Below are positions 36,332-42,386 of a DNA stretch of 64,000 nucleotides, one piece after another. Numbering within the stretch: the stretch's first letter is position 1; every line of letters starts with the position of its first letter. The stretch is taken from NCBI GenBank assembly GCA_001874265.1, contig MPDD01000007.1:1-64000 (forward strand), given 5' to 3'. The position numbers and the translations under genes are program-made. This stretch comes from Bacteroidetes bacterium MedPE-SWsnd-G1 (GTDB lineage Bacteria > Bacteroidota > Bacteroidia > Flavobacteriales > Flavobacteriaceae). The notes beneath the pieces were generated by a model that saw only the letters and a program-made list of their open reading frames with translations, was not told the origin of the DNA and made no database searches.

Positions 36332-36745
36332 TTATTCTGAAATTAAATCGGCCAAAGAAGTATGGCGAAAAATTTGAAGTGTACTATCTCTAACCTGAAT
36401 CATCAACTTGTTAACGCTACATGCATTTTCGTCTGGGCAATCGTCACATTTTTCATAGAAATTTAAACTAACACAAGGCAACATAGCAATTGGTCCTTCT
36501 AACACGCGAATAACATCAGTCATTGGAACATCAGCCGCATCTCTAATTAAATAGTAGCCTCCACCTTTTCCTTTTTTAGAACCAAGAATTCCGGCTTTAC
36601 GCAATGTCAATAAAATACTCTCCAAAAACTTTTGAGATATGTTTTCACTCCTAGAAATTTCAGCAATTTGTACCGGACCTTTTACATCTCGGCGCGCTAA
36701 AAATGTAAGTGCCTTTAGTCCGTATTTCGTTTTCTTTGAAAGCAT
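36332..36745 (-). CDS. Rrf2 family transcriptional regulator
   Basis: MLSKKTKYGLKALTFLARRD, SKKGKGGGYYL, Cys-rich C-VSLNFYEK-C-DD-C-PDENA-C region. Confidence 0.94.
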   Translation of the reverse strand: MLSKKTKYGLKALTFLARRDVKGPVQIAEISRSENISQKFLESILLTLRKAGILGSKKGKGGGYYLIRDAADVPMTDVIRVLEGPIAMLPCVSLNFYEKCDDCPDENACSVNKLMIQVRDSTLQIFRHTSLADLISE

Positions 36746-38991: not shown

Positions 38992-39059
38992 CGTACTTAA
39001 CTTTTAATTTAATACGATTGAAAATGAAATAAGGAAAGTGAATTGTTTTGAAATTCATC

Positions 39060-39154
39060 TGTTATCTATCCAATTTGGTAGAATTTAGCACCTTCTTTAA
39101 AAGTAAAGGGTTGCTAAGGCTTCATCGGGTCTAATCCCTCTGCCTTTCTTTATA
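39060..39154 (-). ncRNA. SAM-I (S-box) riboswitch upstream of metX
   Basis: RNA: GTTATAAAGAAAGGCAGAGGGATTAGACCCGATGAAGCCTTAGCAACCCTTTACTTTTAAAGAAGGTGCTAAATTCTACCAAATTGGATAGATAAC; conserved AGAGGGA, GAYCC, GCAACC, AAGGTGCTAAWTTC and closing P1 GTTAT/ATAAC. Confidence 0.93.
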
Positions 39155-39310
39155 ACACAATCAATAAGTATCTGAACTTGACCGCAAAGTAATGCATAAA
39201 AAAAATAGCACGCAATGAATTTGAAATTTTTCTTTAAATTTCAAATAAGAATTGAGAATAAGCAACATTGGCCACCTATTCTCAATCTGAAAATTTAACA
39301 ATTCTTATTT

Positions 39311-40716: not shown

Positions 40717-40785
40717 AAAAAAAAGCCTCTGAAAAATCAGAGGCTTGTTATTCTATTGTTAAATCTTAACCAAAATAAGCCTCTG
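40717..40785 (-). promoter_or_regulatory. Attenuator: overlapping antiterminator/terminator with 3 arms
   Basis: Arm A CAGAGGCTT (40777-40785), arm B AAGCCTCTG (40738-40746), arm C CAGAGGCTT + U8 (40717-40731), reading on minus strand. Confidence 0.8.
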
Positions 40786-40994: not shown

Positions 40995-41002
40995 TAAATT
41001 TG
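40995..41002 (+). promoter_or_regulatory. -7 box for metK transcript
   Basis: TAAATTTG matches TAnnTTTG, about 9 nt upstream of the riboswitch-like element. Confidence 0.55.
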
Positions 41003-41012
41003 CACCCGAATC

Positions 41013-41065
41013 TCAGAGGAAAAATTTGAACTGATTGCAACCTCTTCAAAAAATGCTAAAGCAGT
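41013..41065 (+). ncRNA. SAM-II/SAM-V-like pseudoknot riboswitch candidate upstream of metK
   Basis: AGAGG-AAAAATTTGAACTGATTGCAA-CCTCT-TCAAAAAATGCTAAAGCAGT: P1 stem AGAGG/CCTCT, loop ATTTGAACTGATTGCAA, tail AAAAATGCTAAAG, pseudoknot ACTG/CAGT. Confidence 0.72.
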
Positions 41066-41132
41066 AAGTGTATACTTCCCTTTGGCTTTTACTTTTTTTT
41101 CTGGATTCTCTAAAACATTAAAAGTTAAGACT

Positions 41133-42386
41133 ATGTCATATTTATTTACATCAGAATCTGTGTCGGAAGGGCACCCTGATAAAATTGCAGATCAAATTTC
41201 AGATGCATTAATCGATCGTTTTTTAGCCTTCGACAAAAGTTCTAAAGTTGCTTGTGAAACCTTAGTTACAACGGGGCAAGTTATTTTGGCAGGAGAGGTA
41301 AAATCTACTGCTTATTTAGATGTTCAAAAAATAGCGAGAGATGTAATTAACAAGATTGGTTACACCAAAGGAGAATATATGTTCGACGGAAATTCATGTG
41401 GTGTTTTAAACGCTATTCACGAACAATCTCAAGATATTAATCAAGGTGTTGACAGAGGCAACTATGATGAGCAAGGTGCTGGTGACCAAGGAATGATGTT
41501 TGGTTATGCTACTAAAGAAACAGAAAATTTTATGCCTTTGGCATTGGATTTAAGTCATCGTTTACTAAAGGAACTTGCTGTAGTAAGAAGAGAAAATTCT
41601 GAAATTACTTACTTAAGACCAGATGCAAAAAGTCAAGTAACTATTGAGTATTCTGATGACAATGTACCACAACGAATTGATACGATTGTAATTTCGACAC
41701 AACACGACCAATTTGATGAAGATGAACCAATGTTGGCTAAAATCAAGGAGGATTTAGTTGGCATATTAATTCCAAGAGTAATTGCGCAACTACCATCAAA
41801 TCTTCAAGCATTATTTAATGATGATATTACGTACCACATTAACCCAACAGGAAAATTTGTAATTGGTGGACCGCATGGAGATACTGGATTAACAGGAAGG
41901 AAAATTATTGTGGATACGTATGGAGGAAAAGGAGCACACGGTGGTGGTGCTTTTTCTGGAAAAGATCCAAGTAAAGTAGATAGATCAGCGGCATATGCTT
42001 CAAGACATATTGCAAAAAATTTAGTTGCTGCCGGAGTTGCTGATGAAATTTTAGTTCAAGTTTCTTACGCTATTGGTGTAGCACAACCAACATCTATAAA
42101 TGTTGAAACTTATGGAACTGCTAAGATTGATTTAACCGATGGTGAAATTTCTAAAGTGGTAGAACAATTATTTGATATGCGACCAGCGGCTATTGAAAAG
42201 CGTTTGAAATTACGCAACCCTATTTATCTAGAAACTGCGGCTTATGGTCATATGGGTAGAACTCCAGAAGTAAAAACCTTAGAGTTCACATCTACAGAAG
42301 GAAAAACCGTTGCCTTAGAGGTAGAGACTTTTACATGGGAAAAACTAGACTATTTAGAAAAAGTAAAAGACGCTTTTAATATCTAA
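41133..42386 (+). CDS. metK: S-adenosylmethionine synthetase (true start 41133)
   Basis: [51 protein letters not shown]. Confidence 0.97.

Follow-up and report, generated by a model that had tools for sequence, protein, structure and literature searches.

A SAM-II long-loop riboswitch ahead of metK in a flavobacterial genome, with a candidate antisense expression platform

What does the leader of the S-adenosylmethionine synthetase gene metK sense in this marine flavobacterium, and how might the signal be relayed to the gene? In the window, by which we mean the whole 64-kb stretch of DNA analyzed, metK occupies positions 41133–42386 of the forward strand (TIGR01034 equivalog, 516 bits with a cut-off of 309). 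Translation starts at the ATG at 41133; a longer open reading frame would begin with a TTG at 41082, a start that is probably unused. A Bacteroidetes −7-like promoter box, TAAATTTG, can be read directly at 40995–41002 (+), confirming the −7 box that a preliminary description of this DNA had placed just 5′ of the leader, and the −7 consensus points to a transcription start near 41007–41008.

A SAM-II long-loop aptamer upstream of metK

A cmscan of the window returned a match to RF01726, the SAM-II "long loop" family, at 41010–41069 (+) with a score of 64.0 bits (E 5.3e-10; gathering cut-off 44 bits), in which the full length of the model, positions 1–60, is covered. The metK ATG lies 64 nt beyond the aptamer end; at the other end, the riboswitch more probably than otherwise begins practically at the 5′ end of the metK transcript. 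The preliminary description had proposed a pseudoknot riboswitch of SAM-II or SAM-V type directly upstream of metK. The riboswitch and its SAM-II type are borne out by the RF01726 score, while membership in the two other families considered was rejected. The SAM_alpha family (RF00521) shares the P1 stem, the loop–tail pseudoknot topology and a GCUAAA-type tail, but the window element scores 16.0 bits with that model, below its cut-off of 36 bits. SAM-V, likewise a SAM-binding H-type pseudoknot (PMC6061858), gave no match at E ≤ 10 in a 701-nt Rfam scan. One RF01726 copy and one SAM-I copy were found in this genome, which is 85% complete.

P1 pairs AGAGG (41015–41019, +) with CCUCU (41041–41045, +), and the loop strand ACUG (41030–41033, +) pairs with CAGU (41062–41065) in the tail; all five pairs of the former helix and all four of the latter are standard, and the bases are exactly those of the preliminary description. 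Absent from that description was a second pseudoknot helix, formed by the loop strand GCA (41037–41039, +) and UGC (41054–41056). The pseudoknot tail, UGCUAAAGCAGU (41054–41065, +), carries the 3′ strands of both helices around a conserved GCUAAA. We label the helices P2a (GCA/UGC) and P2b (ACUG/CAGU), assuming the usual naming and topology of SAM-II. A comparison of 186 distinct leaders of metK showed the inner four pairs of P1 to be present in 185–186, with compensatory exchange at the third pair (A-U in 160, U-A in 22, G-C in 3). P2b is complete in 114 of the 186, mostly as an invariant ACUG:CAGU, with UUGU:ACAA and ACAG:CUGU as rare alternatives. In several relatives (L007, L008, L043 and others) the 'long loop' that separates P1 from the tail contains an extra hairpin, which the window aptamer is without.

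RF01726 is present in 285 of 301 sampled Flavobacteriaceae genomes and in 64 of 396 genomes sampled across the phylum; it was found in 9 of 14 congeners, and in 6 of the 6 that are near-complete. The nearest named relatives by metK belong to Polaribacter. Nearly all aptamer matches (205 of 209, with a few loci contributing overlapping matches) lie 5′ of metK, and the other four precede a metY-like gene (two), an uncharacterised small gene (one) and a metK missed by the motif (one). Weinberg et al. 2010 list the motif, from Bacteroidetes and marine samples, as a structured switch acting in cis (PMC2864571); the window element shares with the motif as listed there the full-length model match, the metK context and the Bacteroidetes host, and nothing in the window aptamer sets it apart. 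The metK leader element is thus a genuine, well-conserved member of the described RF01726 family, and an ordinary one within it. SAM sensing by the window aptamer is predicted by homology, from which P1 and the two-helix pseudoknot would be expected to fold around SAM.

Genomes with two copies of the aptamer offer further contexts. In L036 (G017) and L169 (G253), the gene behind one of the copies is metY-like rather than metK, and a CAAATC antisense motif lies downstream of both. In L014 (G312), one copy precedes an uncharacterised 144-aa open reading frame and a 188-aa membrane-protein-like one, which are possibly SAM- or methionine-related.

Antisense complementarity downstream of the aptamer

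Folded without the pseudoknot, the leader adopts a single long nested hairpin as its minimum-energy structure. Two helices make up this proposed SAM-free fold: i) an outer helix, in which a 5′ strand at 41008–41024 (+), comprising the GAAUC leader end, the P1 5′ strand and the start of the A-rich loop L1, pairs with the antisense strand UUUUUUUUCUGGAUUC at 41093–41108 (+) with a duplex energy of −16.5 kcal/mol, and ii) an inner helix, in which the tail bases GCUAAAG (41055–41061) pair with the anti-tail strand CUUUGGC (41080–41086, +). All pairs of both helices were checked, and both helices are incompatible with the formed aptamer.

Own and swapped downstream regions were compared by permutation across the 186 leaders. 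Duplexes that the aptamer 5′ half forms with the downstream region of the same leader averaged −13.30 kcal/mol versus −11.90 kcal/mol for swapped regions (z −8.4), and the excess of own pairing was still z −4.0 when swaps were confined to leaders of the same L1 class, the main classes being AAAUUUG, AGAUUUG and GGAUUUG. As controls, reversing the downstream region reduced the signal to z −2.0 and reverse-complementing it gave z +1.0. The downstream regions are also strongly asymmetric between strands, with CTTCC occurring 60 times versus 2 for GGAAG, GCAATC 33 versus 0 for GATTGC, and TTCCTC 18 versus 0 for GAGGAA.

The identity of L1 is mirrored downstream. Tabulating L1 class (AAAUUU, AGAUUU or GGAUUU) against the exact antisense 6-mer yielded diagonal counts of 17, 31 and 13 and off-diagonal counts of 2, 0, 12, 5, 4 and 2 (χ2 58.9). 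At least 34 changes of class are required on the metK tree, a FastTree reconstruction from about 140 residues in which single branches are uncertain. Among edge-disjoint pairs differing in L1 class, drawn from the whole tree as supported branches alone gave too few, 9.0 of 15.6 matched on both sides, versus 1.8 (maximum 5) with shuffled labels.

Within this set, the window leader ranks 2 of 186 both ways, that is, in the fit of its downstream region to its own 5′ strand and of its 5′ strand to its own downstream region, and 1 of 60 dinucleotide shuffles matched the pairing between the two. The window core alone (GAGG..UUUG), without the 5′ flank, pairs no better than shuffles. Among congeners, the flank 5′ of P1 is complementary to the end of the antisense strand in 9 of 9 leaders despite sequence change (GAAUCU:GGAUUC, GAAUCA:UGAUUC, GGAACUA:UAGUUCU, AUGAAAUCUA:UAGAUUUCAU and others), a co-variation with an exact p of 0.006 over all 9! 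permutations; it is seen in the genus only, there being none family-wide (z −0.2). Only about 30% of leaders individually beat their shuffles at z < −1.64; either some leaders do without the antisense platform, or it is too degenerate for detection in part of them. The tail is nearly invariant, and hence its preference for its own downstream region is weak by swapping (z −1.7); shuffles gave a modest signal (mean z −0.87). Together, these comparisons suggest that the RNA downstream of the aptamer carries an antisense copy of the first half of the sensor.

Regulatory direction and competing explanations

To relate the two folds to the gene, we forced the aptamer in the fold prediction. Positions 41081–41091 (+) were then freed and paired with 41119–41129 (+), a pre-AUG stretch, UAAAAGUUAAG, located 4–14 nt before the AUG (duplex −8.2 kcal/mol, pairs checked). 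With fold energies that omit the contributions of SAM and the pseudoknot, the predicted mean unpaired probability of the window pre-AUG region (−20 to −1) was 0.70 in the free state versus 0.32 in the bound state. Across relatives, pre-AUG pairing with the downstream region was stronger for own than for swapped partners (−7.10 versus −6.18, z −6.3), and it is obvious in the clade of L012, L017 and L023, where UUGCUUU..AAAGCAA abuts the AUG and holds the antisense strand in its loop. The window's own pre-AUG pairing is unremarkable relative to swaps (ranks 53 and 37 of 184), and no change in pre-AUG accessibility is predicted in several congeners. As a general rule, lowered accessibility around the AUG upon SAM binding was rejected, the average effect over the 186 leaders being tiny (0.55 versus 0.57).

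A model of strand exchange can be drawn from these elements. Without SAM, the 5′ half would pair with the antisense strand 70–85 nt downstream, as the comparative statistics support, and the tail would pair with the anti-tail strand, so that a long nested hairpin forms and the pre-AUG region stays open. With SAM, the aptamer would retain its own strands and the anti-tail/antisense strand would be released; this strand could then pair with the A-rich stretch before the AUG, and translation initiation would fall. Flavobacteria are without Shine-Dalgarno sites, and their initiation is modulated by RNA structure around the start codon (PMC6847099). We infer a translational OFF switch because of this mode of initiation, the predicted pre-AUG closure and the excess of own pairing; that the RF01726 aptamer and strand exchange make up a SAM-responsive OFF switch at metK translation initiation appears reasonably likely, the OFF direction being the weakest step of the mechanism. 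For SAM-II riboswitches elsewhere, other means are predicted: a terminator for Sinorhizobium metZ, and a sequestered Shine-Dalgarno site for the metA and Sargasso Sea examples (PMC9373788); flavobacteria make no use of such sites.

Could the leader instead act at the level of transcription? The preliminary description considered the hairpin followed by CUUUUUUUU a plausible expression platform. As a terminator, this hairpin found no support in a consensus scan, which detected no intrinsic terminator at the metK leader; the only terminator listed for the region lies at 40723–40746. A SAM-controlled attenuator would terminate at the tail hairpin GCUAAAG:CUUUGGC (41055–41086) followed by CUUUUACUUUUUUUU, and indeed both hairpin and U-run exist, and predicted terminators follow many SAM-II aptamers elsewhere (PMC9373788). 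However, the hairpin uses the pseudoknot tail and would therefore terminate in the absence of SAM, the wrong sign for metK. Nor do relatives retain the U-run: where AAGGAUUUG takes the place of AAAAAUUUG as L1, CCUUCC stands in its stead, and in relatives with GGAAGGAUUUG as L1 this replacement is what an antisense strand would be expected to undergo. The U-run thus seems better explained as the antisense strand to L1, and we consider attenuation improbable.

A simpler possibility is that the SAM-stabilised pseudoknot near the 5′ end alters ribosome access or mRNA stability directly, with no strand exchange, and that the complementarity is a by-product of composition. In keeping with it, the antisense strand is individually evident in only about a third of leaders, the average change in pre-AUG accessibility is small, and 64 nt separate the aptamer tail from the AUG. 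A compositional origin is difficult to reconcile with own-specific pairing that does not survive reversal or reverse-complementation of the downstream region, with the co-variation of L1 class and downstream strand on independent tree pairs, or with the strong asymmetry between downstream strands; we regard direct action as unlikely, though less so than attenuation. That the leader merely resembles a riboswitch by chance has a negligible probability. The preliminary description had named the lack of a covariance-model score, and of conserved P1 and pseudoknot pairs upstream of metK, as grounds for abandoning the element; both searches were run and the element survived them, its RF01726 score and its family-wide conservation before metK refuting chance resemblance, in favor of which no point was found.

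The strand-exchange reading has a wider form, in which metK leaders of the Flavobacteriaceae share a platform made up of an antisense copy of the 5′ half and an anti-tail strand, released by SAM and covering the start region. We put this at slightly less than an even chance. If true, it would represent a translational switch that works by exchange among three strands and fits bacteria lacking Shine-Dalgarno sites. The antisense/anti-tail platform appears undescribed, no account of it having been found in the part of the literature searched. The aptamer itself is a routine annotation, and somewhat more weight attaches to the comparative case for a conserved antisense platform; riboswitch control of translation in a Shine-Dalgarno-free phylum is little studied, and the proposed platform opens it to direct tests in Flavobacterium johnsoniae.

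Neighbouring methionine regulators

The same window holds a SAM-I riboswitch (RF00162, 78.9 bits) at 39059–39158 (−), between metY and metX. It shares with the metK element its ligand class and an association with methionine genes; its fold is unrelated, and it heads not metK but the metX operon, a metX/sulfhydrylase/Rrf2/cysH cluster of methionine and sulfate assimilation. Inside this metX–cysH cluster, an Rrf2-family protein at 36332–36745 (−) is CymR/IscR-like, scores below both equivalog cut-offs and is a possible regulator of sulfur assimilation.

Divergent from metK and served by the same intergenic region, metY has a leader (40834–40723, −) that holds a 22-codon open reading frame, MNKISNKMRFMMCKYYAEAYFG (40834–40766), an antiterminator box, GCAGAGG, and the intrinsic terminator AAGCCTCTGATTTTTCAGAGGCTTTTTTTT (40746–40723, followed by a T-run). 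From its layout, it looks like a candidate leader-peptide attenuator that would sense the supply of methionine, perhaps of cysteine. The metY leader has no match in Rfam, and no paper on methionine leader-peptide attenuation was found in the literature searched; for Flavobacterium psychrophilum, there is a general report of amino-acid operons preceded by leader-peptide attenuation (PMC9723704). About a dozen Flavobacteriaceae loci (L008, L063, L257, L275, L284 and L285, for example) have similar leaders, in which an MMC, MMMR, MMMW or MCCMM run is combined with the same CCTCTG..CAGRGG terminator; some MC-rich short open reading frames before metY that had no terminator were left out of this set; in most of these loci, an automatic scan found metY to be the first recognisable downstream gene. 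Three different RNA regulators of methionine metabolism, the metK SAM-II element, the metX SAM-I element and the putative metY leader peptide, are hence located within about 2 kb.
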